Part shown: positions 1 to 10,187 of the stretch, one piece after another
Position numbering within the stretch: the stretch's first letter is position 1
Layout of the letters: each line of letters starts with the position of its first letter
Assembly: GCA_013817135.1 (NCBI GenBank)
Contig: JACDDF010000039.1
Location: 1 to 10,187 of the forward strand
Direction of reading: 5' to 3'
DNA: 10,187 bases
From: Nitrospirales bacterium
GTDB taxonomy: Bacteria > Nitrospirota > Nitrospiria > Nitrospirales > UBA8639
Notes under the pieces: model-generated
Told to the model about the DNA's origin: nothing
What the model saw: the letters and a program-made list of their open reading frames with translations, nothing else
Databases searched by the model: none
Translations under genes and position numbers: made by a program

Positions 1-3
1 GGG

Positions 4-106
4 GTACAGCGTAGGGCGTGGAGACACAGAAGAACGATACTCCCTGCGCCTTACGCTTCACCCTTTACGCCTTACCCCTAGCGCCTTACGTCCTACTCCC
101 TCACGT
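4..106. repeat. Heptamer hairpin repeat, copy 1 (after the phosphatase gene)
   Basis: The G-rich arm reads GTACAGC GTAGGGC GTGGAGA (4-24). The core contains AGAAGAACG (28-36). The C-rich arm runs from 50 to 106 as units such as CTTACGC, TTTACGC, CTTACCC and CTTACGT, with one single-base slip at position 99. The last unit ends at the base before the stop codon of the phosphatase gene. The left arm is more diverged than the right, and the copy may continue past the left window edge. No T-tract terminator is visible here. Confidence 0.8.
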
Positions 107-1324
107 CTAAAACTCCACTCCGAGTAACGCCACGTCATCCTCAAATCCGGCTTGGGCATTCCATGTCCGGCTCTCCTCAATAATACGGGACAATCCGGAC
201 TGCAACGGCTGACCGGCAACCTCCTCAAGTGCTTTCTGAAGCCTTTTTCTCCCCCAGATCTCTTCCTGAGGATTCATCACTTCATAAATACCATCGCTAA
301 AAAGATACATCCGGTCCCCGGGATTCACGGTGATGGAATCAGTTCCATACACCTCGTCACGCGAAAAACCAATAGGCCAGGATCGCCCCCCCAACACAAC
401 CGAAGACCCATCTCTTTGCACCACAATGGACCCGGGATGTCCCGCAGTCCCATACCGAAGAAGGCGCGTGGAGCATTGCCAGACCCCAACCCAGATGGTG
501 AAATACTCCCCGTCATCGCTCATGGGATATTGTTGGTTCAGACTGGTCAGGATCTCGCCTGGATCGTATGAGGGAAACACTTGCTGCATATGTTCTCCCT
601 TGAAAAACAGAGATAACGCCACGGCCCGCAACGCGGGCCCGATCCCATGCCCCGACATATCCAACATCATGAGACCGAGATGGTCGTTCCCCCATCGGGC
701 AACCTGAAAGAAATCTCCTCCTAAATGCGAGGACGGCAAAAATTCCCACTCCACCCGCACTCCAGGGACCACTTCCCCTGTCCGGGGGAGCAGACCCCGG
801 ACAAAGTCGGAGGCCGAACGGAGTTCGAAATGTAATTCCACCTGCTTTTGTGATAACAACCGATTGGACTTTTCCACATCGAGCATCAACTGTCGGACTC
901 GAAGGCCCGCGCACACTCTGGCTACAATTTCATGACCGGAAGCGGTTTTGGATAAGAAATCATCGGCTCCCCGGCTGAGCCCTTCGGCAATTTGTGTCGG
1001 GTGGTCCAATGCCGTCATCAGAATAAAATGGATTGTGCGATAGCGTTCATCTTGTTTAATCGCTTCACAAAGTCCGGGACCATCAAGACCGGGCATCACC
1101 CAATCCGACAGGATGAGATCCACCGGTTCCTGATCCAGCATCGCCAGAGCTTCTTCCCCATTTTGGGCCTCCAATACTCGATACTGCAGTTTGGCCAAAC
1201 GCTTCTTGGCGACCATCCGCACAATTTCTTCAGTATCCACAATGAGAATGGTGTAGGATGGCTCGCCGATAGGCGCTTTCACATCGAGGACATTTTCCGT
1301 CGTCATCTGCTTAATTGAACCCAT
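107..1324 (-). CDS. Response regulator with SpoIIE-type PP2C phosphatase output
   Basis: This is a two-domain signalling protein (405 residues from ATG 1324). Residue numbers here follow the longer form from GTG 1348 (413 residues). A receiver domain spans about 33-150, with phosphoacceptor Asp82 in ILSDWVMPGLDGP, Thr112 (MTA) and Lys134 (FLSK). A coiled linker (about 150-190) follows, then a PP2C/SpoIIE (RsbU-like) serine/threonine phosphatase domain with HLGGDFF (Asp212), LDMSGHGIGPAL (Asp230), AGHPG, LFSDGIYE (Asp352) and EDDVALLGVEF (Asp404/405). The metal-binding acidic residues look intact. The receiver's usual DD pair is Asp38-Thr39. Such proteins normally dephosphorylate an anti-sigma antagonist, but no STAS or kinase partner is in the window. 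The GTG has no Shine-Dalgarno and touches repeat DNA; the ATG has a distant AAGG, so the start is uncertain. The stop TAG directly abuts a heptamer array. Confidence 0.9.
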   Translation of the reverse strand: MGSIKQMTTENVLDVKAPIGEPSYTILIVDTEEIVRMVAKKRLAKLQYRVLEAQNGEEALAMLDQEPVDLILSDWVMPGLDGPGLCEAIKQDERYRTIHFILMTALDHPTQIAEGLSRGADDFLSKTASGHEIVARVCAGLRVRQLMLDVEKSNRLLSQKQVELHFELRSASDFVRGLLPRTGEVVPGVRVEWEFLPSSHLGGDFFQVARWGNDHLGLMMLDMSGHGIGPALRAVALSLFFKGEHMQQVFPSYDPGEILTSLNQQYPMSDDGEYFTIWVGVWQCSTRLLRYGTAGHPGSIVVQRDGSSVVLGGRSWPIGFSRDEVYGTDSITVNPGDRMYLFSDGIYEVMNPQEEIWGRKRLQKALEEVAGQPLQSGLSRIIEESRTWNAQAGFEDDVALLGVEF

Positions 1325-1357
1325 AGAGATATCCGGGCCTTGTGTCACAGGGGAAAA

Positions 1358-1438
1358 GTGAGGATTCAGGAGTTAGAAGAAAGAACGAATCTCCGCACCT
1401 CATCATACTCATTATGCCTAACGCCTCACACTTAGCGT
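1358..1438. repeat. Heptamer hairpin repeat, copy 2 (fliA / phosphatase spacer)
   Basis: The G-rich arm is GTGAGGA TTCAGGA GTTAGAA (1358-1378). The core is AGAAGAAAGAACG (1375-1387), followed by AATCTCC. The C-rich arm is CTAACGC CTCACAC TTAGCGT (1418-1438). It lies just upstream of the possible GTG start of the phosphatase gene. It is the shortest well-formed copy, with three units per arm. Confidence 0.75.
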
Positions 1439-1460
1439 GTTTGTCATGAACTGAAGATAG

Positions 1461-1485
1461 ATGCCCGATAAACAATGTCGGGCAT
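1461..1485. repeat. REP-like palindrome, 8-bp perfect stem
   Basis: ATGCCCGA (1461-1468) and TCGGGCAT (1478-1485) are exact reverse complements around a 9-base loop, in the fliA-phosphatase spacer. On the coding strand the stem is not followed by a T-run, so it is not a canonical intrinsic terminator. It resembles short extragenic palindromes and could stabilise or trim the fliA 3' end. The function is inferred, not shown. Confidence 0.6.
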
Positions 1486-1530
1486 GACGGAAAAGAGGTA
1501 GCCGCCCTGCGTCTTAATCCTCAGGCCTTA

Positions 1531-2325
1531 CTACGGACCGAGCCGTGTATGGAGAAGGGCCTTCAGGCGAATCATGGCTTGCGCATGTAACTGACAAATG
1601 CGGGATTCCGTGACGTGCAACACGACACCGATCTCCTTCATCGTCAACTCTTCAAAGTAATAGAGGGTCAACACAAGCCGTTGGCGTTCAGGCAATCGCT
1701 CAATGGCATCAACCAACGCATGGCGTGCATCCTCGGACACCAGGGTCTCCAACGGCGAGGGTTGATCGCGATCCGCCAGCGCATCCAAGATGGGATGGGA
1801 ATCTTCATCATTGGACCCCAAATCATCGAGACTCAATACCACAGCGCCTTTGGCTTGCAAAAGGGTCTCATCCACTTCTTGCGGCTGCATACCTAAGGAT
1901 TCCGCCAACTCTTCTTCTGTCGGTGGCCGACCTTTGCGTTTTGTCCATTCATTGGTCGCATGTTGGATTTTCCCGATACGCTCCCGAAGAGACCTCGGCA
2001 CCCAGTCCATCGCCCGGATTTCGTCAAGCATCGCGCCACGAATACGAAACTCGGCATAGGTACGAAATTTAATTTCTCGTGAGGGATCGAACTTCGTCAG
2101 GGCATCCAGAAGCCCTACCATTCCGGCGCTCATCAAATCATCCACATTGAGCCCACTCGAAGCTCGCATGGCCATTCGCATAGCCATGTATTTAATGACC
2201 GACAAAAACTCCTGAACCAGCGCTTCGCGTTCCTGGGAGGAGAGCGAAAGTTTCGTCGGAATCGACGAGGCTGTGTCTTCCAAAACCGGTCTCTCTGAAA
2301 CTGTTGTTACCGCGCCACGTTTCAT
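1531..2325 (-). CDS. fliA: RNA polymerase sigma factor FliA (sigma-28)
   Basis: FliA directs RNA polymerase to late flagellar and chemotaxis promoters once FlgM has been exported through the completed hook. The 264-residue product has sigma region 2 at about 35-105 (DLMSAGMVGLLDALTKFD, FRTYAEFRIRGAMLDEIRAMD), with the family's DWVPRSLRE boundary at 107-115. Region 3 (about 116-165) carries KGRPPTEEELAESLGM, and region 4 (about 205-258) the helix-turn-helix LTMKEIGVVLHVTESRICQ. Compared with E. coli FliA (239 residues) it has a longer, Ser/Thr-rich N-terminus of about 30 residues. ATG 2325 has GAAGGA as ribosome binding site, overlapping the end of flhG. No FlgM gene is in the window. Members of this FliA/WhiG group can also serve other regulons, but the position after flhF-flhG makes FliA the clear choice. 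Confidence 0.96.
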   Translation of the reverse strand: MKRGAVTTVSERPVLEDTASSIPTKLSLSSQEREALVQEFLSVIKYMAMRMAMRASSGLNVDDLMSAGMVGLLDALTKFDPSREIKFRTYAEFRIRGAMLDEIRAMDWVPRSLRERIGKIQHATNEWTKRKGRPPTEEELAESLGMQPQEVDETLLQAKGAVVLSLDDLGSNDEDSHPILDALADRDQPSPLETLVSEDARHALVDAIERLPERQRLVLTLYYFEELTMKEIGVVLHVTESRICQLHAQAMIRLKALLHTRLGP

Positions 2326-2328
2326 GCG

Positions 2329-3261
2329 TTATCCTTCCGTCACAGTTCGAGTGGCTCCCAAGGCAGCAGGACCAAAAAGTTGAAATCCCCCTTGCCAGGA
2401 ACAATCTCCCCTCCAATCATTGAGGACCTTCACCAAAGAGGTAAAGGCTCGGCTCGCCGGAGCGCGCGGGTAGACATCGCACACCGCACGTTGTTGAGCC
2501 ACGGCCATCGTCACATAGTCATCTGTGGGAACACATCCCAGATAATCAAGCGAAATATTTAGAAACCGATCCGTCACCAAACTCAACTTCCGAAACACAT
2601 CTTTGCCTTCCTGAGTATGTTTCACTTTATTGACAAGCATGCGGAATTTCCGCAAGTGATAGCGGGTAGAAAGAATTTTGATCAGGGCATAGGCATCAGT
2701 CAAAGACGTTGGATCGGGCGAGACCACCACCAGCGTTTCGTGAGCCACTAAACTAAAGTACAACACATTGGCCGAAATTCCTGCCGCACAATCAATCAGC
2801 AGCAAGTCCGGCGGAGATGCCAACTGAAGAAAGGCTGATTGTAAATGCAGTTGCTGCTCATGCGTCAGCTGAGTGAAGGCCTGGCCTCCGGACGTTGCCG
2901 GTAACAGGCGAATGCCTTCGGGCCCGGTCACGAGGACGTCCTCCAAGCGTCGTTGCCCCGAGAGCACGTCCTCAATCGTATACTGCGGAGTGAGACCCAA
3001 TAGGATATCGACGTTCCCTAACGCCAGATCCGCATCCATGATCAACACCTTCCGTCCCTGACGAGCCGTAGCCACCGCTAAATTCGCGACCACATTACTT
3101 TTCCCGACCCCGCCTTTTCCTGAACTGACCGCAATCACCTGAATGCGTGAGGGATCCTGTGGGTTGACGTTCATGGCGGCGCGTAATCCACTGGCTTGAT
3201 CCAGTCGTCGTTGAACCGAGACGCCGGGCACCAGTAGCGGTGTGGATGATGACCCGGCCAT
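2329..3261 (-). CDS. flhG: MinD-like ATPase FlhG, regulator of flagellar number
   Basis: FlhG (also FleN, YlxH or MinD2) is a MinD/ParA-type ATPase that limits flagellar number and stimulates the FlhF GTPase. The 310-residue product has the deviant Walker A motif KGGVGKS (49-55), MDADLALGNVD (75-85), DCAAGI (157-162) as the Walker B region, and a C-terminal amphipathic stretch (RAFTSLVKVLNDW) suited to membrane binding. The N-terminus carries DQASGLR (21-27), matching the DQAxxLR motif with which FlhG activates FlhF. This marks it as FlhG rather than a division MinD, as does its 1-nt overlap with flhF. The last 20 residues (GGFQLFGPAALGATRTVTEG) look poorly conserved. The GAAGGA just before its TAA serves as ribosome binding site for fliA, 3 nt downstream. 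Confidence 0.96.
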   Translation of the reverse strand: MAGSSSTPLLVPGVSVQRRLDQASGLRAAMNVNPQDPSRIQVIAVSSGKGGVGKSNVVANLAVATARQGRKVLIMDADLALGNVDILLGLTPQYTIEDVLSGQRRLEDVLVTGPEGIRLLPATSGGQAFTQLTHEQQLHLQSAFLQLASPPDLLLIDCAAGISANVLYFSLVAHETLVVVSPDPTSLTDAYALIKILSTRYHLRKFRMLVNKVKHTQEGKDVFRKLSLVTDRFLNISLDYLGCVPTDDYVTMAVAQQRAVCDVYPRAPASRAFTSLVKVLNDWRGDCSWQGGFQLFGPAALGATRTVTEG

Positions 3262-4592
3262 TAGTGCGCTACCCCCGTCAACGGCACAGGTTCCTGAAGG
3301 ACCTGGCCCGGTGATTGACCCCAGGCCAATTCAACCAGGCGCGTTCGGGTGGCAACCTCTAAATCTTCAGGTACACGTTGTCCGGCAGAGAGATAGGAGA
3401 CCGGCAGGCCCGTCTGTGACAACACGTTATAGAGACCGCCACCCATCGATACCTCATCCAGTTTCGTAATGATGAGCTTATGAATAGGAACCGATTGATA
3501 GCGGCGAATGGTGTCCATCTGGACCAACTCGGCCATGGGGGCGGCTAATACCAGATGCGTTTCCACATGGACTTGTCCCCTGGTAATCGCAAATAATTCA
3601 TCATACCCGGCTTGATCCTTGGGGCTTCGCCCCGCGGTATCAATCAACAACAAATCCGCATGCTGATGTCGTCCCATGCATTCCATGAAATCCTTATGAG
3701 AAACCGCTACCTCCAGGGGTATTTTTAAAATTTTTGCAAATACCCGGAGTTGCTCCACCGCCGCCACGCGATACGTATCCAACGTAATTAATACGGTTCG
3801 CCGATGCTCATCCTGTTGACGGGCCAACCCTGCCAGCTTAGCAATGGTCGTCGTTTTTCCCACGCCTGTCGGCCCAACCAACATCATCACTTTTTGGCCA
3901 TAATGCTTGGACACCGCTGGACCCGAGACGGCCACAGCCTCCTCCATTCGTTCCCACAACAGACTTTTCATCGCCTCGCGATTTCCCACACCGGCTGTCC
4001 CGAGCGTTTCCACCACCGCACGCACCAGATGATGCGCGGTCTGAGGGTTCACTCCCTGAGACACCAACGACTGATAGACGTCCATCAGGTCTCCAGGTAA
4101 GCCTTCAACCCGTTTGTCCATCTGACTTCCCAACACTTGTCCCACCACAATCCGCAGGCCTTCTAATTCCTGTCGTAAGGGTCCTAACACCCGTTCAGGA
4201 TCTTGTTGTTCTTCCCGCAATCGTTGAATTTCCTGGCGCATCTCATGAAGGTGCTGAGTCATCGGATCCAACGCATTCGCGACCTGCAGGGCTTCCGAAA
4301 AACTGTGATCGGCTTTGGCCTGCACCGGTGGAGGAGCAGGCGCATCGGGCACAAAGCGTTTGGCTAGAAGGGACTGAAAAGATCGATCAACACGTGCGGG
4401 CTCAACCTCCGCCTGAGATGAACGATCCACCGCTGCCGTCACCTCAATGATCGATTGACTGAGCAGGCCAAACAGGCCTCCCCCTTTTTGAATCCGGCGG
4501 GACGAGACGATGACCGCCTCAGGCCCCAGTTCCGCTTTCACCGCTTGGAGAGCTTCTTGTAATGAGAGGGCTTCAAACCGTTTCAGCTTCAT
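3261..4592 (-). CDS. flhF: Flagellar biosynthesis SRP-type GTPase FlhF
   Basis: FlhF is an SRP-family GTPase (relative of Ffh/FtsY) that places the nascent flagellum, usually at the cell pole. The 443-residue product has a basic N-terminal B domain (MKLKRFEALSLQEALQAVKAE), a Pro/Ala-rich and coiled linker (about 60-165), an N domain (about 165-230), and a complete G domain: P-loop GPTGVGKTT (240-248), DTYRVAAVEQL (272-282), DTAGR (318-322), TKLDE (376-380) and the closing SAGQRVPEDL (402-411). All nucleotide-binding motifs are intact, so an active GTPase is expected. The start ATG lies 20 nt inside flhA, with GAGGA upstream as ribosome binding site. The stop shares one base with the flhG start (TAATG), consistent with coupled synthesis of this GTPase and its activator. 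Confidence 0.97.
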   Translation of the reverse strand: MKLKRFEALSLQEALQAVKAELGPEAVIVSSRRIQKGGGLFGLLSQSIIEVTAAVDRSSQAEVEPARVDRSFQSLLAKRFVPDAPAPPPVQAKADHSFSEALQVANALDPMTQHLHEMRQEIQRLREEQQDPERVLGPLRQELEGLRIVVGQVLGSQMDKRVEGLPGDLMDVYQSLVSQGVNPQTAHHLVRAVVETLGTAGVGNREAMKSLLWERMEEAVAVSGPAVSKHYGQKVMMLVGPTGVGKTTTIAKLAGLARQQDEHRRTVLITLDTYRVAAVEQLRVFAKILKIPLEVAVSHKDFMECMGRHQHADLLLIDTAGRSPKDQAGYDELFAITRGQVHVETHLVLAAPMAELVQMDTIRRYQSVPIHKLIITKLDEVSMGGGLYNVLSQTGLPVSYLSAGQRVPEDLEVATRTRLVELAWGQSPGQVLQEPVPLTGVAH

Positions 4593-6678
4593 GTGGCATC
4601 CTCACGACTTCAATAGCTTGAATTTGAGTTTTAGGGTCCAACTCGTTCGGAGAGAGCACCGCCAGGGCATGCACACCCGGCGAGACTAAGCGATAGAGTT
4701 GGGATCGAATCGACTGGGAACATAACAGCACGGGTTGATACCCTTGACTGACAACTCGCTCAATGGCCTGACGGATCGACAGAATCACTTGATTCAACAA
4801 ACTGGGAGGCAACCCCCCTTGTTCTCCACCACTGGGCCGCATCGCCTCCATCAACCGGCGATCCAGCATCGGATCCAGACTTATCACCTGCAGCAATCCG
4901 TCGGCATTGGCATATTGGGACGAAATGGTTCTGGATAAATTCTGCCGAGCATATTCCGTCAGGGTGTCAGGATCCTTACTCTGAGTGGTGTAATCCGCAA
5001 CAGTCTCCAAAATGGTCCGCAGATCGCGGATCGACACTCGTTCTCGTAAGAGATTCTTAAGGATTCTCACCACCGCTCCTAACGATATTTGAGTCGGAAT
5101 CAAGTCATCCACCACCTTGGGATACGTCTTGGCTAGGTTATCCAGCAAATTCTGGACCTCTTGCCGACCCAGCAATTCATGCCCATTGGATTTAATAAAT
5201 TCCGTCAGATGGGTGGCAATAATGGCCGGCCCATCGACGACCGTATAACCCTCCATTTGAGCCCGCTCCTTTTCGGAGGGGGCAATCCAGACCGCCGGCA
5301 ATCCGAAACACGGATCCTTTCCCGGCTTCCCTTGTAGGCCCTTTTTTGCATGACCAGGATTGATGGCCAACAAATGCCGGGGCACCAGTTCTCCCTTGGC
5401 TACCTGAATCCCCTTCAACAAAATACTGTACTCATACGGTTTGAGCTGCAGGTTATCCCGGATATGCACGGCCGGCACGACAAAGCCCATATCAAGAGCC
5501 GTTTGGCGCCGGATAGACCGAATCCGTTCTAACAACTCCCCTCCCTGGGCCTGATCGACAAACGGCACAAGTCCATAGCCGACATGCAACTCCATAAGAT
5601 CCGGAGGGGTGACGGTATCCACCGATTCCGTGCTGGAGGATGTCGATGGATCTTGTTTCTTGGGGAGACTTTTGAGGCGAGCGGCTTCTTGTCTTTGATT
5701 CCTCAACACATACGCTAAGCCGGCTGTCATCGATCCCAACAACAAAAACGCGACATGCGGCAACCCGGGAAGAATTCCTAAAAAGAACAACATGCCGGCC
5801 ACGGCAGCCACAAGATGGGGATTAAAAAATATTTGGTCGGTTAAATCACGTCCAAGGCTGGTTTTGGTCGAAACCCGCGTCACAATGATACCGGCGGCTG
5901 TCGACATGATCAGGGCGGGAATTTGAGCTACGATAGCGTCGCCGACCGTCAGCAGGGTAAAGCGTTTAGCGGCTTCCATGATGGACATCCCATGTTCCAA
6001 CACGCCGATGCCCAACCCGCCGATGACGTTGATAAAGATAATGAGCAGCGCGGCAATCGCATCGCCACGAACAAACTTACTGGCACCGTCCATCGATCCG
6101 TAAAAATCGGCTTCCTGCGAAATGGCCTCCCGGCGCTTCCGCGCTTCGCCTTCGTCAATCATCCCCGCATTGAGATCCGCATCGATACTCATTTGCCTGC
6201 CGGGCATCGCATCCAGGGTAAATCGCGCGGCAACTTCTGCAATACGGGTAGCACCTTTGGTGATCACCACAAAATTGATAATCACCAGAATGGAGAAAAC
6301 CACAATGCCCACCGCATAATTTCCCCCGACCACAAATTCCCCGAACACGGCAATGACCTGCCCGGCTGCAGCGGGGCCTTCGTTCCCATGCATAAGAATG
6401 GCCCGCGTCGAAGCAATATTCAACGCAAGGCGAAATAACGTGGTGAGCAACACCACCGACGGGAAAACGGAAAATTCCGCGGGACGCCCGGCATGCATGG
6501 TCACAAGCAAAATTAAAACAGCCAGGGTAATACTAAAGGATAAAAAGAGGTCCAGAAGAAAGGACGGAAGGGGCAACAGCATGAGGAGAAGCATTCCCAC
6601 CACCCCGACCGGCAAGAGCACATCCCCATAATGCGCGGGAGTGAGTTCGTCTCGTAATTTTTGAGAATCAAATGCCAT
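4573..6678 (-). CDS. flhA: Flagellar export gate protein FlhA
   Basis: FlhA is the nonameric export-gate protein whose cytoplasmic ring docks chaperone-substrate complexes and which couples export to the proton motive force. The product is 701 residues, normal for the family. Residues 1-327 hold about eight hydrophobic segments. The FHIPEP signature loop is at about 144-182 (RIAEVAARFTLDAMPGRQMS, then DADLNAGMIDEGEARKRR). The KFVRGDAIA block follows, with Asp206, equivalent to the essential Asp208 of Salmonella FlhA. Residues from about 330 are a Ser/Thr-rich linker (QDPSTSSSTESVDT) and then the cytoplasmic domain. ATG 6678 has AAGG at 5-nt spacing. A 130-nt spacer with one repeat copy separates it from flhB. 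Its 3' end overlaps flhF by 20 nt. No anomalies are seen. Confidence 0.97.
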   Translation of the reverse strand: MAFDSQKLRDELTPAHYGDVLLPVGVVGMLLLMLLPLPSFLLDLFLSFSITLAVLILLVTMHAGRPAEFSVFPSVVLLTTLFRLALNIASTRAILMHGNEGPAAAGQVIAVFGEFVVGGNYAVGIVVFSILVIINFVVITKGATRIAEVAARFTLDAMPGRQMSIDADLNAGMIDEGEARKRREAISQEADFYGSMDGASKFVRGDAIAALLIIFINVIGGLGIGVLEHGMSIMEAAKRFTLLTVGDAIVAQIPALIMSTAAGIIVTRVSTKTSLGRDLTDQIFFNPHLVAAVAGMLFFLGILPGLPHVAFLLLGSMTAGLAYVLRNQRQEAARLKSLPKKQDPSTSSSTESVDTVTPPDLMELHVGYGLVPFVDQAQGGELLERIRSIRRQTALDMGFVVPAVHIRDNLQLKPYEYSILLKGIQVAKGELVPRHLLAINPGHAKKGLQGKPGKDPCFGLPAVWIAPSEKERAQMEGYTVVDGPAIIATHLTEFIKSNGHELLGRQEVQNLLDNLAKTYPKVVDDLIPTQISLGAVVRILKNLLRERVSIRDLRTILETVADYTTQSKDPDTLTEYARQNLSRTISSQYANADGLLQVISLDPMLDRRLMEAMRPSGGEQGGLPPSLLNQVILSIRQAIERVVSQGYQPVLLCSQSIRSQLYRLVSPGVHALAVLSPNELDPKTQIQAIEVVRMPHEAETV

Positions 6679-6693
6679 GCGTGCCTTGATCGG

Positions 6694-6729
6694 TTACCGT
6701 TGTTGCATTCGTTGATACTCTATTTGCAC
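6694..6729 (-). other. Possible 11-codon leader ORF before flhA
   Basis: A GTG at 6729 is preceded at 6-nt spacing by AGGAG (6740-6736), the best Shine-Dalgarno in this spacer. It opens an 11-codon frame (MQIEYQRMQQR) ending in TAA at 6694, 15 nt before and in frame with the flhA ATG. Its last codons are CGG TAA CCG, identical to the end of the small ORF before fliR. It could be a translated leader that feeds flhA, or a chance frame. No function can be assigned from the sequence. Confidence 0.18.
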
Positions 6730-6747
6730 ATCACTCTCCTAAGCCTC

Positions 6748-6814
6748 GTGAGGAGGAATACCTTTATTTCGCTTTACGATTCTCACCTCACGCGTTAGGC
6801 GCCACGCTTCACGT
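6748..6814. repeat. Heptamer hairpin repeat, copy 3 (flhB / flhA spacer), degenerate
   Basis: One clear G-rich unit, GTGAGGA (6748-6754), is followed by an AT-rich core and a C-rich arm in 7-bp register: CTCACGC GTTAGGC GCCACGC TTCACGT (6787-6814). One unit in that arm is in the G-rich orientation. The last unit contains the flhB stop codon (TGA on the minus strand, 6811-6809). The AGAAGAAC-type core motif is not clear here, so this is the most decayed copy. Confidence 0.6.
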
Positions 6815-7885
6815 TCCCTCATGGATATTCTTCAAGCGATACACATAGGCCAACACCTCAGCCGCCGCCTGATACAATGCCCCGGGCACTTCCTGACCGA
6901 TTTTCACTGCCTTATACAACCCTCGAGCCAGACTGCGGTTTTCAACAATCGGGACTCCCGCATGACGCGCAATCTGCTTAATCTTGTCCGCCATAAACCC
7001 TGCGCCCTTCGCCACCACCACCGGAGCGTCCATTTTCCCCGTTTCATATCTGAGCGCCACCGCCACGTGGGTTGGGTTGGTAATCACCACATCGGCTTTG
7101 GGCACTGCCTGCAACATGCGCTGTCTGGCACGTTCCCGTTGCAAGCTGAGGCGGCGGGATCGAATCTGCGGATCACCTTCCACATCCTTCGACTCGTCTT
7201 TCACTTCCTGTTTGGTCATCTTGTGATCCTCGGTATGCTGCCACCGCTGATAGATGAAATCGATGATCGCCAACAGGAGCAAGGCCCCTCCGACCGACCA
7301 CACAATGTTCTGGAGGATCCCCCACGCACCACCAACCGCCTCGGTTAATTCGAGAAGGGAAAGCTGAAGAATCGCGAGCATGTTATGGGACAGAATCAAA
7401 TAGGCAATCCCACTCACGCCTGCCAGCTTCAGCATCGACTTCAACAGGTCGACCACCCCTTTCCAGGAAAAGATGCGCTTCAACCCATTGTAGGGATTCA
7501 ATTTGGACGGCTTGGGTTGCAAGGCCTCTTCAATCCAAAGCGGCCCGGTTTGCAAAACAATGGCGAAAAACGCAAACGCACCAACCAAGAGTCCGAAGGG
7601 AATGAGAGGAACAAAGGCTTGGTAGGCGATATTTAGCAACAACACATGTGTGGACTGAGCATCTAACTGGAGGGTTCCGGCTTGCGCCAACCACTGTCGG
7701 TAATGATCAAAAAACTGGACAAACGCGTGAGGGGCCCAAAGAGAAATCACCCCGACCCCGCCCAACAAGACAACCAAGGAGGGCAATTCCCTCGTCATCG
7801 GCACTTGGCCTTTGCGACGGGCCTCCGCTAAGCGTTTCGGACTCGGTTGCTCTGATTTATCCGCCCCGTCTTTATTCTCAGCCAT
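6809..7885 (-). CDS. flhB: Flagellar export substrate-specificity switch FlhB
   Basis: FlhB is an export-gate membrane protein that switches secretion from rod/hook to filament substrates after it cleaves itself. The 358-residue product begins with the family N-terminus, SEQPSPKRLAEARRKGQVP (residues 11-29). Four hydrophobic segments follow at about 35-55, 85-110, 145-175 and 185-212. Next comes a charged linker (TKQEVKDESKDVEGDPQIR) and the cytoplasmic domain. The autocleavage motif NPTH is intact at residues 270-273, so the switch should work. The start ATG 7885 overlaps the end of fliR by 8 nt. The TGA stop (6811-6809) and the last Thr codon lie inside a heptamer of the repeat that fills the spacer before flhA, so the repeat may have set the exact C-terminus (ending HEGT). 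Assignment is secure. Confidence 0.97.
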   Translation of the reverse strand: MAENKDGADKSEQPSPKRLAEARRKGQVPMTRELPSLVVLLGGVGVISLWAPHAFVQFFDHYRQWLAQAGTLQLDAQSTHVLLLNIAYQAFVPLIPFGLLVGAFAFFAIVLQTGPLWIEEALQPKPSKLNPYNGLKRIFSWKGVVDLLKSMLKLAGVSGIAYLILSHNMLAILQLSLLELTEAVGGAWGILQNIVWSVGGALLLLAIIDFIYQRWQHTEDHKMTKQEVKDESKDVEGDPQIRSRRLSLQRERARQRMLQAVPKADVVITNPTHVAVALRYETGKMDAPVVVAKGAGFMADKIKQIARHAGVPIVENRSLARGLYKAVKIGQEVPGALYQAAAEVLAYVYRLKNIHEGT

Positions 7886-8663
7886 GCCCTAAGTCCTGTA
7901 CTAAGTCCCACAAGACCGTCTCCATCCCGACAATCCAGTTTTGAAAGACTAAGGCGATGAAGGGCAAACCCAACCCTAACACCAACAACCCTACTGAAAT
8001 CGTAATGGGAAAGCTGGTGAGCATGACGTTTATCTGAGGAACCAGCCGGCCAAGAATCCCCATGATGGCATGCACCAGAAATGTTGCGGCCATGACAGGA
8101 AAGGCCAGCTTCAGTCCCGTGTCGAAGGTTCGTTGCATGACTCCGGTCACATCGCTCAACAGAGGGGCACTCAAATGGGCGCCGAAGGGTGGAATCAACT
8201 GAAAACTACTGCCCAACGCCAACAACACCAAATGATGCCCATCGACTTGAAAGTACAGAAGGGTTGCCAGAATGGTCAGTAATTGCCCAAACACCGGTGT
8301 TTCCACTTGAGTAACAGGATCCAACACTCCGGCCATAGCAAACCCCACTTGAAACCCCATCACACTCCCTGCCAGTTCCACCGCGGTCATGAGTAATCGC
8401 AACGCCAAACCTAAGACCAGTCCGACGAGCAATTCGGCACCCAACGCGATCACAAGATTGGCGGGTTCCAACCAATTGGGAGGGAGTGTAAACGTCACGA
8501 CAGGCATCAACAGGATGGCAATAATGACCGCCAATCCGATTTTGATGCGGTTCGGAACCGATTGCCCCCCCAGCAACGGTAAGGCCGACAAAATGACGGC
8601 TGTGCGGACGAGCACGACCACGAATTGCCACACTTGCTGAATCGCAAAATCCCATTGAAACAC
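7878..8663 (-). CDS. fliR: Flagellar export gate protein FliR
   Basis: FliR is the single-copy subunit of the export-gate core and contacts FlhB. The 261-residue product has the usual length and family blocks: VPNRIKIGLAVIIAILLMP near residues 37-54, GFQVGFAMAGVLDP (103-116), and LGRLVPQINVMLTSFPI (204-220), with hydrophobic segments throughout. The start is GTG at 8663. It is the only reasonable choice, because an in-frame TAA lies just two codons upstream and later candidates would cut into the first membrane helix. No clear Shine-Dalgarno precedes it; a small candidate ORF ends 3 nt before it, so translational coupling is possible. The 3' end overlaps flhB by 8 nt (ATGGCTGA), which also points to coupled translation. 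Confidence 0.95.
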   Translation of the reverse strand: MFQWDFAIQQVWQFVVVLVRTAVILSALPLLGGQSVPNRIKIGLAVIIAILLMPVVTFTLPPNWLEPANLVIALGAELLVGLVLGLALRLLMTAVELAGSVMGFQVGFAMAGVLDPVTQVETPVFGQLLTILATLLYFQVDGHHLVLLALGSSFQLIPPFGAHLSAPLLSDVTGVMQRTFDTGLKLAFPVMAATFLVHAIMGILGRLVPQINVMLTSFPITISVGLLVLGLGLPFIALVFQNWIVGMETVLWDLVQDLGHG

Positions 8664-8673
8664 CGGTTACCGG
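8663..8673. promoter_or_regulatory. CGGTTACCG palindrome at the fliR start
   Basis: CCGGTTACCGG is a palindrome around a central T. It covers the first base of the fliR GTG and the stop codon of the small upstream ORF. The 9-base centre recurs at 6691-6699 before flhA. It could be a small mRNA hairpin over the start or a coincidence. I see no known operator in it. Confidence 0.25.
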
Positions 8674-8744
8674 ACATCTTTCTCACACATATCGCAGGTC
8701 GATTCCATCAATTGGGCTAAAGAATATTTCAGAAATTTTGCCAT
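8667..8744 (-). CDS. Candidate 25-residue ORF directly upstream of fliR
   Basis: This short reading frame starts with ATG at 8744, reads MAKFLKYSLAQ and on to STCDMCEKDVR, and stops with TAA three nucleotides before the GTG of fliR, in the same frame as fliR. An AGG 8 nt upstream could act as its Shine-Dalgarno, and an in-frame TAG at 8756-8754 bounds it. It contains a CxxC pair (Cys17, Cys20). I do not recognise a family. Its possible importance is positional: fliR itself has a GTG start with no visible ribosome binding site, so translation of this frame could deliver ribosomes to fliR. It may equally be a chance ORF, since it is very short. Presence of the same peptide before fliR in relatives would be the deciding evidence. 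Confidence 0.3.
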   Translation of the reverse strand: MAKFLKYSLAQLMESTCDMCEKDVR

Positions 8745-8791
8745 TTCATCAGCCTATGAGTGCCCCAGGCCAATTAGAGACGCTTGGAGTC

Positions 8792-8911
8792 GTAAGGGGT
8801 GAGGCGTCAGGCGTAAGGAGACAAAAGAAAGAACAGATTTTCACTCCTTACATTCTTTATTCTTCAATCCTTACGCCTCACGCCTTACCCCTCACGCCTT
8901 ACTCCTTACGT
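8792..8911. repeat. Heptamer hairpin repeat, copy 4 (fliQ / fliR spacer), best preserved
   Basis: Four G-rich units (GTAAGGG GTGAGGC GTCAGGC GTAAGGA, 8792-8819) precede a core beginning AAAAGAAAGAAC (8823-8834). Six C-rich units follow in perfect register (CTTACGC CTCACGC CTTACCC CTCACGC CTTACTC CTTACGT, 8870-8911). By eye, 8792-8819 pairs with 8868-8895 at 25 of 28 positions plus one G-T wobble. A long imperfect hairpin is therefore expected in RNA or as a cruciform. Confidence 0.88.
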
Positions 8912-8950
8912 CGGCAAGGCTCAGGACAGGATTTTTAAACACTCCGCTGA

Positions 8951-9220
8951 TCATTGTGCAAACTCCGGTATCCTTGCCCAAACCCCGGTCATGAATCCCA
9001 CAAGGATTTCCACCATCCAGGGAAACGTAACCAAGAGCACCACAAACATGGTGGCAACCTTTGGCAAAAAGGTGAGGGTCATTTCGTTAATTTGAGTCAT
9101 GGCTTGGAACGCACTCACACAGAGTCCTACCACTAAGCTGAGACCCAACATGGGACCCGCCACAAGCAGTATTGTTTGAATCGCCTCCTGACCGATGCTC
9201 AAGACACTTTCGGTTGTCAT
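8951..9220 (-). CDS. fliQ: Flagellar export gate protein FliQ
   Basis: FliQ is a small two-helix membrane protein of the flagellar export gate that packs around the FliP-FliR core. From ATG 9220 it is 89 residues, the usual family length, and begins MTTESVLSIGQEAIQTILL. Two hydrophobic hairpin helices lie at about residues 15-38 and 53-80, separated by the conserved QAMTQINEMTLTFLPK loop. The frame is open upstream to 9313, but those 31 extra codons are translated heptamer repeat (for example FTPHCVLFTPH), so I reject the longer start. A GAAAGG Shine-Dalgarno-like sequence lies just upstream of the chosen ATG. Repeat-bearing spacers flank the gene on both sides (195 nt to fliP, 287 nt to fliR), unlike the tight spacing further down the operon. 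Confidence 0.95.
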   Translation of the reverse strand: MTTESVLSIGQEAIQTILLVAGPMLGLSLVVGLCVSAFQAMTQINEMTLTFLPKVATMFVVLLVTFPWMVEILVGFMTGVWARIPEFAQ

Positions 9221-9259
9221 CTTCTCAACCCTTTCAAGCTTGCCATGAAAATAGTACAA

Positions 9260-9409
9260 GTGAGGCGTGAAAAGTACACAGTGAGGAGTGAAGGGCAAGG
9301 AGTCAGGAGCCAAAAGAAGGAAAGTTCTCTTTGCCCTCGCATTCTTTACACTCCTGACTCCTCACGCCTAACCCCTTACTCCTTACGCCTGACGCTTCAC
9401 GTCTTACGG
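9260..9409. repeat. Heptamer hairpin repeat, copy 5 (fliP / fliQ spacer)
   Basis: Seven units in the G-rich arm (9260-9308, from GTGAGGC to GTCAGGA) precede a core with AAAAGAAGGAAAG (9312-9324) and ATTCTTTAC. Eight C-rich units follow in unbroken 7-bp register from CTGACTC (9354) to CTTACGG (9409). The inner units of the two arms pair well (GTCAGGA with its complement) and the outer ones less so. The array ends 6 nt from the fliP stop codon. Its left arm generates a false N-terminal extension of fliQ. Confidence 0.85.
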
Positions 9410-9415
9410 CCTTTC

Positions 9416-10187
9416 CTATTGAAAACTATTCATCAGTGCTCCCACGATCAGAAACCATCCATCAGCCAACACAAACAACACCAACTTAAACGGCAACGAG
9501 ATCATGATCGGCGGCAACATCATCATACCCATGGACATTAAAATGCTGGCGACAATCATATCGATCACGAGAAAAGGCACATAGATCAGAAAGCCGATTT
9601 GAAATGCCGTCCGCAATTCACTCGTGACAAACGCCGGCACCAGGACATGGAGCGGCACATCATCGGGCGTCTGAGGGTGAGGAACTTTCGCCATCTCCAC
9701 AAACAAGGTTAAATCCTTTTCGCGGACTTGTTTCAGCATAAACATTCTTAGCGGGATCTTGGCCCGTTCAAGCGCCACTTCCTGAGTCACCTTTTGTTCC
9801 AATAGCGGATTAAGTGCCTCAACCCGAATTTCCTCCCACACCGGCATCATAATAAACAGAGTCAAAAACATAGCTAATCCAATCATCACCTGATTCGGTG
9901 GCGCATGCATGGTCCCCAACGCCTGCCGAAGAAGACCCAGCACAATCACCACGCGTGTAAATGCCGTCACCAGCATCAACAGGGCCGGCGCAAGCGTTAA
10001 GGCCGTCAGGAGAAAGAGGATGCGAAGCCCGAAGGTCCACGGTTCGGTCCCGTCCAATCCTGACACCTGTAAACTGATCGCCGGATCCTTGGTGACCTGG
10101 GCAAGGGCCAAGGTCGATGGTCCCATGACCAGACTCAGGACGAGCAGTCCCGGAAGGTCACGTCGTCCACGAAACCCACAATAAGGT
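9416..10187 (-). CDS. fliP: Flagellar export gate protein FliP, 5' end outside window
   Basis: FliP is an inner-membrane component of the flagellar type III export gate; in known systems five FliP with FliQ and FliR form the helical channel core. The protein shows FliP hallmarks: FTRVVIVLGLLRQALGT, then APPNQVMIGLAMFLTLFIMMP, a polar middle segment, and a C-terminal pair of hydrophobic stretches containing FLVIDMIVASILMSMGMMM. The first in-window ATG (10126) gives 236 residues, but the frame stays open for 20 more codons to the window edge. Those codons read RGRRDLPGLLVLSLV before the ATG and continue into GPSTLALAQ. That is a charged n-region, a hydrophobic core and an ALA-Q cleavage-like site, a typical FliP signal peptide. 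I therefore infer that the true start lies past 10187 and the gene is cut by the window. It stops with TAG 6 nt from a heptamer repeat, followed by fliQ. Family assignment is very secure; the start is not visible. Confidence 0.95.
   Translation of the reverse strand, partial: PYCGFRGRRDLPGLLVLSLVMGPSTLALAQVTKDPAISLQVSGLDGTEPWTFGLRILFLLTALTLAPALLMLVTAFTRVVIVLGLLRQALGTMHAPPNQVMIGLAMFLTLFIMMPVWEEIRVEALNPLLEQKVTQEVALERAKIPLRMFMLKQVREKDLTLFVEMAKVPHPQTPDDVPLHVLVPAFVTSELRTAFQIGFLIYVPFLVIDMIVASILMSMGMMMLPPIMISLPFKLVLFVLADGWFLIVGALMNSFQ

Follow-up and report, generated by a model that had tools for sequence, protein, structure and literature searches.

The window, the whole 10,187-nt stretch that was analysed, covers positions 1 to 10,187 of contig JACDDF010000039.1 (assembly GCA_013817135.1) of a Nitrospirales bacterium. 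It carries flagellar genes together with a response-regulator gene, all on the minus strand, and several repeat features between them (Table 1). The MinD-like ATPase gene was named from its position, and we take it to be fleN. Both the five spacers longer than 100 bp and the tight junctions described from the sequence are real; the intergenic distances at the latter are −8 (fliR-flhB), −20 (flhA-flhF), −1 (flhF-fleN), and 3 bp (fleN-fliA). The contig terminates within an element (1..105).

Table 1. Genes and repeat features of the window
Feature	Position	Strand	Basis or description
Element 3ʹ of the response-regulator/SpoIIE gene	1..105	-	Long G-rich heptamer arm, short core, C-rich arm truncated at contig end
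Response-regulator receiver + SpoIIE-type phosphatase gene	107..1324	-	Pfam
Weak element, fliA to response-regulator (fliA-RR) spacer	1339..1448	-	Core-A-like centre; 67.8 bits (model trained on it)
Repeat X, separate short palindrome, not a heptamer element	1457..1490	-	8-bp stem ATGCCCGA/TCGGGCAT
fliA (FliA/WhiG sigma factor)	1531..2325	-	NCBIfam TIGR02479, over cut-off
MinD-like ATPase gene (presumably fleN)	2329..3261	-	Top NCBIfam matches are MinD families, below cut-off
flhF	3261..4592	-	NCBIfam TIGR03499
flhA	4573..6678	-	NCBIfam TIGR01398
Degenerate remnant, flhB-flhA spacer	6725..6812	-	2/1 heptamer units; fold z −1.2
flhB	6809..7885	-	NCBIfam TIGR00328
fliR	7878..8663	-	NCBIfam TIGR01400
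Best-formed element, fliQ-fliR spacer	8787..8912	-	G-rich heptamer arm, core, C-rich heptamer arm
fliQ	8951..9220	-	NCBIfam TIGR01402
Element, fliP-fliQ spacer	9236..9411	-	G-arm of 8 units, core, C-arm of 5 units
fliP	9416..10126	-	NCBIfam TIGR01103

The sequence-only reading had placed exactly one element of the same design in each long spacer. The lag-7 identities in the spacers 1-106, 1325-1530, 8664-8950, and 9221-9415 were 0.53, 0.38, 0.39, and 0.46, respectively, and each was reached by 0/2000 mononucleotide shuffles, the value behind the element at 1339..1448 covering the whole fliA-RR spacer. In the flhB-flhA spacer (6679-6808), the identity was 0.33 and not significant, being reached by 114/2000 shuffles. 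The STRR of cyanobacteria are tandem heptamers between genes, some of them in inverted pairs, and the tandem 7-nt period that characterises such heptameric repeats was present in four of the five spacers. All five contained members of D1, a repeat family detected with no unit specified in advance, the member in the flhB-flhA spacer lying at 6761-6806 with 61% identity to the reference. Tandem Repeats Finder reported arrays of 7 or 14 bases at 49-89, 8791-8818, 8869-8910, and 9350-9393 and one of 21 bases at 9253-9292, and no array in the spacers 1325-1530 and 6679-6808. A strict element caller, with at least two units per arm and at least five units in total, passed three of the five spacers and rejected fliA-RR (2/2 units) and flhB-flhA (2/1). 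The covariance model matched four of the five window elements, the same four that it was built from, and no match at E up to 0.001 was obtained in the flhB-flhA spacer. Rfam gave no match within the window at gathering score. Genome-wide, the loose heptamer pattern had 48 matches, compared to 0 for its reversed control. The claim of one element per long spacer is partly confirmed, and for flhB-flhA it is in part refuted; nor is "exactly one" accurate, as a palindrome of another kind lies at about 1457-1490 within 1325-1530.

The window copies span 88-176 bp. With the covariance model, which was trained on them, the elements at 8787..8912 (6/4 units), 9236..9411 (matched at 9276-9403), and 1..105 (6/2 units) scored 116.4, 112.1, and 72.3 bits, respectively. 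Repeat X carries CGTC at one end on the minus strand and has a fold z (RNA fold scored against dinucleotide shuffles) of −2.8; similar sequence recurs in the window's genome, within the fliL-fliM spacer, and in genome G018, upstream of fliL.

The design common to the family is an array of GTRARRN heptamers, a core (median length 44 nt in 53 called elements), and an array of complementary heptamers. Across 118 stretches, which were selected by pattern, positions 5 and 6 of the unit GTRAGGN were G in 95% of units. In comparison with the terminal inverted repeats of MITEs, the arms were complementary as arrays, but no more so within an element than between elements of a genome. Private matching was not the rule: between a 3ʹ arm and the 5ʹ arm of its element, the fit was no closer than with arms taken from elsewhere in that genome, and when partners were permuted within genomes, the observed value was reached 639/2000 and 1409/5000 times. 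Arm length at a single site varied widely, with 12 in-register C-side units in the fliA-RR spacer of G005.

Comparison of the cores with in-register heptamers masked yielded 19 matches at E up to 1e-3. Core A was found at non-homologous loci (fliN-fliO, fliP-fliQ, and a response-regulator 3ʹ end), and so was core B (upstream of fliL, in the cation-efflux/kinase spacer, and upstream of cheR); the others were repeats X and Y or residual heptamer sequence. Cores A and B therefore give the common sequence at unrelated loci that is typical of MITEs, while most site pairs lack it, and beyond the listed matches no core shared between sites was detected. Mean core similarity was 0.241 between sites of one genome, close to the 0.220 for unrelated pairs. 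The rule that arms follow the genome and cores follow the site was rejected, as the trend was weak and the C-arms of clade A contradict it (0.487 for the same genome, 0.548 for the same site).

The suggestion that insertions opened a once compact operon was supported in the main by occupancy among relatives. The flhB-flhA spacer was 8 bp or less and without an element in 5/19 genomes (8 bp in four, a gene overlap in G014), and G002 has a full element there. The fliQ-fliR spacer was 48-49 bp and empty in 7/18 genomes, the relatives differing by more than the element at this site, where G017 has another repeat. G015 and G019 have a short cation-efflux/kinase spacer with no element, the spacer after cheD was empty in G008, and the kinase-gene insert was missing in G009. 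The element caller, which left out spacers of 40 bp or less, was positive for 53/194 scored spacers, for none in 100 mononucleotide-shuffled sets, and for none when reversed. No element was called in G008 (0/11 scored spacers) or in the outgroup G023 (0/8 scoreable spacers), and with the cation-efflux site included, G015 had 0/4 and G017 1/12. Copy number in 20 genomes of the genus ranged from 0 to 87 pattern matches and from 1 to 110 model matches, and rich and poor genomes were interleaved on the tree, which was built without G001 and G015. Examples of rich genomes are G002, G005, G006, G014, and G019, and of poor ones G003, G004, G008, G013, G015, and G018. The recurrence of some cores at unrelated loci also agrees with insertion. 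Several species share an element at many of the sites, so the insertions are old, and either gain or loss may account for the pattern at any single site. No target-site duplication was seen at the filled and empty flhB-flhA, fliQ-fliR, cation-efflux/kinase, and kinase-gene sites, which are too diverged to define one, and defined element ends were not found. A seeming interruption of CheD in G017 came from a string of N bases in the assembly.

In the window's genome, 20/32 matches fell in flagellar/chemotaxis loci, which make up 0.54% of the sequence; these enrichment counts are of overlapping pattern matches rather than independent elements. The clustering held in most counted genomes of the genus and was missing in G018 (0/3) and G017 (0/2). 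Because copies track motility genes within the genus, a random inserter would not account for them. As a general rule, the enrichment was rejected: near flhA, nine genomes from beyond the genus (one of the family, G021, and eight others of the order) gave one match to the C-type pattern versus 1.02 expected and 4 to the general pattern versus 1.96 expected.

The same design was found in records from several phyla among the 118 stretches, with titles naming Nitrospira, Thiobacillus, Thioalkalivibrio, Geobacter, Gemmatimonadales, Chloroflexi, and others; a likeness to Nitrospira sequence, suggested in the sequence-only reading, is borne out by records with Nitrospira or Nitrospirae in their titles. 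At most 10 of these stretches were called coding, of which seven read through and four of the seven carried Pfam domains. In-frame copies were found in UvrA-like, CheA-like, SpoIIE-phosphatase, glycosyltransferase/HAD, and hybrid kinase proteins.

The computations show arrays of heptamers, cores that are related at some unrelated loci, filled as well as vacant sites, copies in frame, large copy-number differences between close relatives, and clustering in motility loci of most counted genomes of the genus. Most probably, the elements belong to a small dispersed repeat family of the MITE/REP kind and are mostly tolerated passengers in a lengthened operon. Copies would enter, and get lost from, flagellar/chemotaxis spacers and a few other places in the genus, an occasional one landing in frame inside a gene; those in the operon would have lengthened a once compact unit and would now be mostly tolerated, with side effects on mRNA at most. 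A putative enzyme acting in trans may copy the elements, slippage may change the arms, and recopying or gene conversion may keep the arms alike within a genome. Against this reading count the negative results for target-site duplications, defined ends, and a candidate enzyme, the age of the insertions, the further differences between relatives at fliQ-fliR, the scarcity of shared cores, and the preference for motility genes.

Slippage could also act by itself: each spacer would have grown its own heptamers with no dispersal, and the arms would be complementary because all share one preferred unit. Excerpts of PMC4692102 and PMC4679880 describe heptamers as the most frequent long repeat unit of many bacterial genomes, with slippage proposed as their source. 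The wide variation of arm length at one site, as in the fliA-RR spacer of G005, the lack of a shared core in most site pairs, and the equally good pairing of arms between sites of a genome and within an element speak for such local growth. We nevertheless consider it unlikely, given the related cores at some unrelated loci, the intragenic copies whose two arms are both in frame, and the similarity of the unit across many taxa, for which, admittedly, the search pattern had selected.

The second possibility of the sequence-only reading was that the elements are retained as 3ʹ structures of the transcript and set the relative output of the export-gate genes; they might act as mRNA stabilisers, RNase III sites, or attenuators. 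Two hairpins are strong, with a fold z of −8.8 for the fliQ-fliR element (8787-8915) and of −4.0 and −4.2 for a pair of overlapping segments from the fliP-fliQ element (9236-9411). The fliP-fliQ site is full in 7/16 scored genomes of the genus and looks, by eye, like a remnant in several further ones, copies cluster in motility operons, and other small palindromes (Correia and ERIC) undergo RNase processing, as stated in excerpts of PMC10969869. However, three of the five window elements (1-106, 1345-1440, and 6725-6812) folded no better than dinucleotide shuffles, fold z being −1.0 for the first, which is cut by the contig end, and −0.1 for the second. Sites are often empty in relatives, and arms that are not privately matched count against a kept private hairpin. 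A scan with loops of 3-8, which would miss long-cored hairpins, found 22 terminator-like sites, none of them in the five spacers. By a crude longest-ORF gene caller, the 118 stretches comprised 10 coding, 65 tandem, 16 convergent, and 20 divergent cases and 7 edges; reading frames run out of the C-arm, and an unrevised pass had given 38/118 coding and 7 divergent. Divergent-gene spacers, 20 of the 101 non-coding, non-edge cases from other taxa, were not significantly below the intergenic-base expectation (p = 0.30). Together with the lack of a C-type excess near flhA in the nine genomes outside the genus, these results leave retention as 3ʹ structures improbable and a role as terminator or 3ʹ stabiliser without support from fold, arm-partner permutation, terminator scan, or orientation classes, while the two strong hairpins could still act as transcribed 3ʹ structures. 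Provision of stop codons was likewise rejected: the ends of many genes fall at or within the first arm, but without a significant phase (13/63, p = 0.11), and the first half of the window elements does not provide a stop in every frame. Finally, arms serving as arrays of binding sites for a putative nucleoid or motility regulator would suit the flagellar/chemotaxis clustering within the genus and the interpretation of several Geobacter metallireducens repeat arrays as global-regulator sites (excerpts of PMC2700814), but this is very unlikely, as motility spacers lack elements in G008 and G015 and nearly so in G017, elements often sit between genes of a single operon, and the C-type pattern shows no excess near flhA outside the genus.

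For the dispersed repeat family, no candidate mobilising enzyme was found, the Y1 family being the one counted. The RAYT (Y1) transposase gained no support as mobiliser: Y1 counts in 20 genomes, with all Y1 proteins pooled, did not follow heptamer counts (Spearman 0.11, p = 0.64) or model counts (0.22, p = 0.35). Loss of the palindrome nuclease SbcD was rejected as a cause: it was over the family cut-off in 2/78 genomes, the rich G014 and the poor G007, with weaker matches in 13 more, and so does not separate rich from poor. A bolder version, that one multi-phylum family copies itself via a putative enzyme, renews its arms in a host-specific dialect while the core stays bound to the site, homes to motility clusters of a single genus, and enters loops and linkers of conserved proteins in frame, is possible but rather doubtful. 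The elements lengthen operons, can change protein loops, and may break short-read assemblies, and motility clustering combined with element-rich and element-free close relatives offers a direct system for seeking the generating enzyme or process.

Among the matches listed from open-licence PMC text, none treats the GTRARRN unit, queries with literal sequence gave only unrelated titles, and no settled name or mechanism for the design was seen, save one possible sighting in Geobacter (PMC2700814). The comparisons that follow refer to excerpts of the papers cited. MITEs (PMC10969869) are likewise small, with inverted arms, in spacers, and sometimes in in-frame gene fusions, whereas the elements here have arms of degenerate heptamers in variable number, and no target-site duplication or parent transposase was found. 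Rickettsia palindromic elements (PMC10969869, PMC3733652) are also palindromic and lie in frame within unrelated proteins, unlike the heptamer arrays here, which are mostly intergenic. The GTAG and CGTC REP families (PMC3733652) share palindromes, a location mostly in spacers, and strongly variable copy number, and the CGTC families are without a known transposase, as here; REPs, at 20-40 bp and with stems of 5-13 bp, are shorter than the window copies, and the palindrome at 1457-1490 is nearer the CGTC kind than the heptamer elements are. The TAACTGA repeats of Beggiatoaceae, some cyanobacteria, and Bacteroidetes (PMC4679880) are intergenic heptamers with a patchy distribution too, but they have another unit, are mostly direct without opposed arms, and in Beggiatoaceae lie directly upstream of start codons. 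The heptamers of Xanthomonas (GGGAATC) and Nostoc (GGGGAYT) (PMC4692102) are intergenic and tandem with some inverted pairs; the unit differs, GG pairs replacing GGG runs here, where a core with two opposed arms is the rule. The "class 4" sites of Geobacter metallireducens (PMC2700814), described there as a pentanucleotide, are possibly of the same kind as the present elements, and CCYTC at 7-nt spacing occurs on the plus strand of 8 of the 118 stretches.

We favour the view that the long spacers of the window hold a dispersed family of heptamer-armed repeats whose behaviour is insertion-like. The minus strand of the window carries fliP, fliQ, fliR, flhB, flhA, flhF, a MinD-like ATPase gene (fleN, judging by its position), fliA and a receiver/SpoIIE phosphatase gene. 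A strong 7-base period was found in four of the five spacers longer than 100 bp (0 of 2000 mononucleotide shuffles each) and was not significant in the flhB-flhA spacer, where 114 of 2000 such shuffles reached it. That spacer nevertheless has a member, 61% identical, of D1, a direct-repeat family found without a preset unit. A strict caller (at least two units per arm and five in total) passed three of the five spacers, and only fliQ-fliR and fliP-fliQ folded better than dinucleotide shuffles. The covariance model R1, with ten training copies (five from the window's assembly, four of these from the window), recovered its four window training copies, and flhB-flhA was not recovered. The sequence-only reading had assigned every long spacer a single element of common architecture; this stands in outline for four, and flhB-flhA holds only a remnant, at a site that is full in the related genome G002.

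Positions of the spacers, palindrome, motif and in-frame elements
Feature	Sequence and position	Observation
Spacer after response-regulator/SpoIIE gene	window 1-106	element truncated by contig end; continuation visible in G002
fliA-RR (response regulator) spacer	window 1325-1530	contains a second, unlike palindrome besides its element
Second palindrome of fliA-RR spacer	window 1457-1490, minus strand	8-bp stem beginning AT, CGTC at one end
flhB-flhA spacer	window 6679-6808	
fliQ-fliR spacer	window 8664-8950	
fliP-fliQ spacer	window 9221-9415	
Motif upstream of fliL	L037 (C633), about 720-740	TGGCAC-N5-TTGC, conserved in near relatives
Element in hybrid histidine kinase	L034 (C405), about 1705-1816	in frame within receiver domain
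Element in UvrA-like protein, Zoogloea metagenome bin	L228, aa 293-319 of frame 1-5199	in frame

Contig C212, which the window spans from end to end, belongs to a draft genome (3,238,757 bases, 645 contigs) whose completeness is 84.6%. Reverse-complemented, the window starts with 146 bases that recur, with one mismatch, at the end of contig C633, indicating that the flagellar operon extends further upstream. C633 carries fliM and a flagellar-rod-type C-terminus (Pfam), with what we take to be fliL, fliN and fliO; the motif upstream of fliL resembles a sigma-54 promoter. The window contig begins within an element and is overlapped at its opposite end by C633 (L037 end); elements of this kind may break short-read assemblies. 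A chlorite-dismutase match on contig C45, where cheD and cheB presumably lie, together with the earlier reader's mention of similar sequence in Nitrospira genomes, points to nitrite-oxidising Nitrospira-like bacteria as the putative host.

The loose heptamer pattern had 48 matches in this genome, compared to 0 for the reversed control, and the covariance model had 20; in these genome-wide counts a palindrome matched on both strands gives two. All 48 pattern matches lay in seven of the 645 contigs (C212, C633, C45, C384, C405, C406 and C555), C45 being the contig with a cheR-like gene, cheD and the spacer following cheD. When the seven contigs were searched alone, the model gave 21 matches of at least 24 bits.

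The pattern, with at most one mismatch allowed, was present in 41 of 78 genomes, a set made up of the window's, 19 others of its genus and further members of the family and order. Within the genus, pattern counts ranged from 0 (G003, G004, G008, G015) to 87 (G002), and model matches from 1 (G008) to 110 (G005), with up to 150 candidates per genome scored by a model trained on flagellar copies. FlhA was 98% identical to the window's in G003, G013 and G002, which have 0, 2 and 87 pattern matches, respectively. Element-rich and element-poor genomes were interleaved in a tree of joined flagellar proteins, from which G001 and G015 are absent; the long branch of G009 probably reflects incomplete sequence. 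Across the 20 genus genomes, larger assemblies tended to have fewer model matches (Spearman -0.50, p 0.026), the sizes being those of incomplete assemblies.

Measured in 18 genomes, the fliQ-fliR spacer (287 bp in the window) was 48-49 bp in 7; the outgroup G023 has 28 bp there. The flhB-flhA spacer, 130 bp in the window, was at most 8 bp in 5 of 19. The strict caller found 53 of 194 scored spacers full (13 sites, 21 genomes), and none in 100 shuffled sets or the reversed control; scoring covered spacers above 40 and below 420 bp, and decayed copies escape the caller. The window's genome was full at 8 of the 13 sites, while all 11 sites scored in G008 and all 8 in G023 were empty by the caller; no element was called in the 15 scored fliO-fliP spacers (65 bp in the window's genome and near relatives). 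In the fliQ-fliR spacer of G017 (L105), a different repeat lies at the place of the heptamer element, indicating that flagellar spacers collect more than one repeat family. This G017 repeat, a third kind and about 106 bp long, also occurs in the cation-efflux/kinase spacer of G010 (L294), the two copies being 75% identical. The spacer upstream of cheR in G015 (L272) has another inverted-repeat unit, CCCCTCAGCTTGCTGAGGGG, in two similar versions. In the fliA-RR spacer of G005 (L112), the C side has 12 in-register units, mostly ACGCCTA, and the G side has 3, an unbalanced array that perhaps expanded recently.

With in-register heptamers masked, 19 matches (E ≤1e-3) connected non-homologous sites. 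Core A was common to fliN-fliO, fliP-fliQ and the 3' end of the response-regulator gene, in identical orientation, and core B to the spacers upstream of fliL, of cation-efflux/kinase and upstream of cheR; the remaining matches include two other repeats, X and Y, and residual heptamer sequence. Most site pairs gave no match in this comparison, and cores from different sites of one genome were on average little more similar (0.241) than unrelated pairs (0.220).

A privately kept hairpin predicts that the best match of the 5' arm is its own 3' arm. Judged by duplex energy, pairing of native arms (-0.895 kcal/mol/nt) was no better than pairing between two elements of the same genome (-0.931; within-genome permutation reached 639 of 2000 times), indicating that arm pairing comes mainly from the unit shared across the genome. 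Native pairs did beat same-site pairs from other genomes (-0.895 vs -0.790; 0 of 2000), and the alignment score agreed (1409 of 5000 within genomes; 1 of 5000 for the same site in other genomes). By this score the native partner was strictly best within its own genome in 9 of 49 cases, and some single elements matched privately, such as the window's fliQ-fliR copy (24 vs a mean of 17.6). Core resemblance was higher between copies of one site, and arm resemblance slightly higher between copies of one genome, a weak trend that was not uniform. Of the two origins proposed from sequence alone, insertion into a once compact operon is favoured, whereas neither arm matching nor site retention nor context lent support to a retained regulatory structure; a regulatory function is still conceivable for the two strong hairpins, fliQ-fliR and fliP-fliQ.

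Counts made with the heptamer pattern rather than the trained model in the flagellar and chemotaxis stretches covered, set against the whole genome, exceeded expectation in 13 of 15 genus genomes, the matches being non-independent because they step along single arrays. These stretches held 20 of 32 matches in 0.54% of the sequence of the window's genome, and 44 of 87 in G002 (160-kb contig, 5.5% of the genome); the other counts were 3/4 (G010), 2/2 (G013), 1/2 (G016), 10/44 (G001), 20/81 (G005), 5/66 (G006), 2/10 (G009), 3/46 (G019), 2/23 (G011), 2/19 (G012), 3/16 (G014), 0/3 (G018) and 0/2 (G017). Nine genomes from outside the genus showed no excess of the heptamer pattern near flhA (1 vs 1.02 expected), indicating that the motility association is a property of the window's genus; a more general pattern gave 4 vs 1.96 expected there.

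Copies also occur inside genes. The C405 kinase copy follows the receiver motif MDGYE..IR and precedes IPIIALTANA, a position at which 9 of the 10 related kinases compared have inserts of varying length, some similarly worded, and the G009 kinase has none. A G002 paralogue (L268), 50% identical, has a similar peptide in the same loop.

In database records of other bacteria, the both-arm strict pattern (30-60 nt gap) matched at least 118 stretches, in a scan run without a shuffled control. The listed titles comprise Nitrospira, other Nitrospirae, beta- and gammaproteobacteria, Desulfuromonadales, other deltaproteobacteria, Gemmatimonadales, Planctomycetes, Chloroflexi, Aminicenantes, Thermoanaerobaculales and one Flavobacteriaceae bin; metagenome bins, with titles that may be wrong, account for many of these records. 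Among the matches listed, 10 of 118 were called inside an open frame, with read-through in seven; Pfam domains were recognised in four of these seven (UvrA, CheA-type kinase, SpoIIE phosphatase, glycosyltransferase-HAD), and the three domainless ones may not be real genes. Gene orientation in the 101 non-coding cases among the matches listed did not differ significantly from the intergenic background.

Y1 transposase counts did not track heptamer counts. SbcD cuts hairpins in other bacteria; of the 78 genomes of the order, 2 had an SbcD match above the family cut-off, compared to 8 of 14 control genomes, and with SbcD so scarce the order may tolerate long palindromes. As a cause of within-group differences in element number, this scarcity fails to explain them.

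Small mobile repeats of cyanobacteria have reportedly been described by Elhai and co-workers. Heptamer repeats with other units, REP families and MITEs are covered by earlier papers taken together (PMC4692102, PMC4679880, PMC2700814, PMC3733652, PMC10969869). The second palindrome of the fliA-RR spacer has similar sequence at two other places, one between fliL and fliM in the window's genome and one upstream of fliL in G018. This palindrome resembles CGTC-tagged REPs, but its loop is 9 nt long, compared to 4-5 nt in those REPs.
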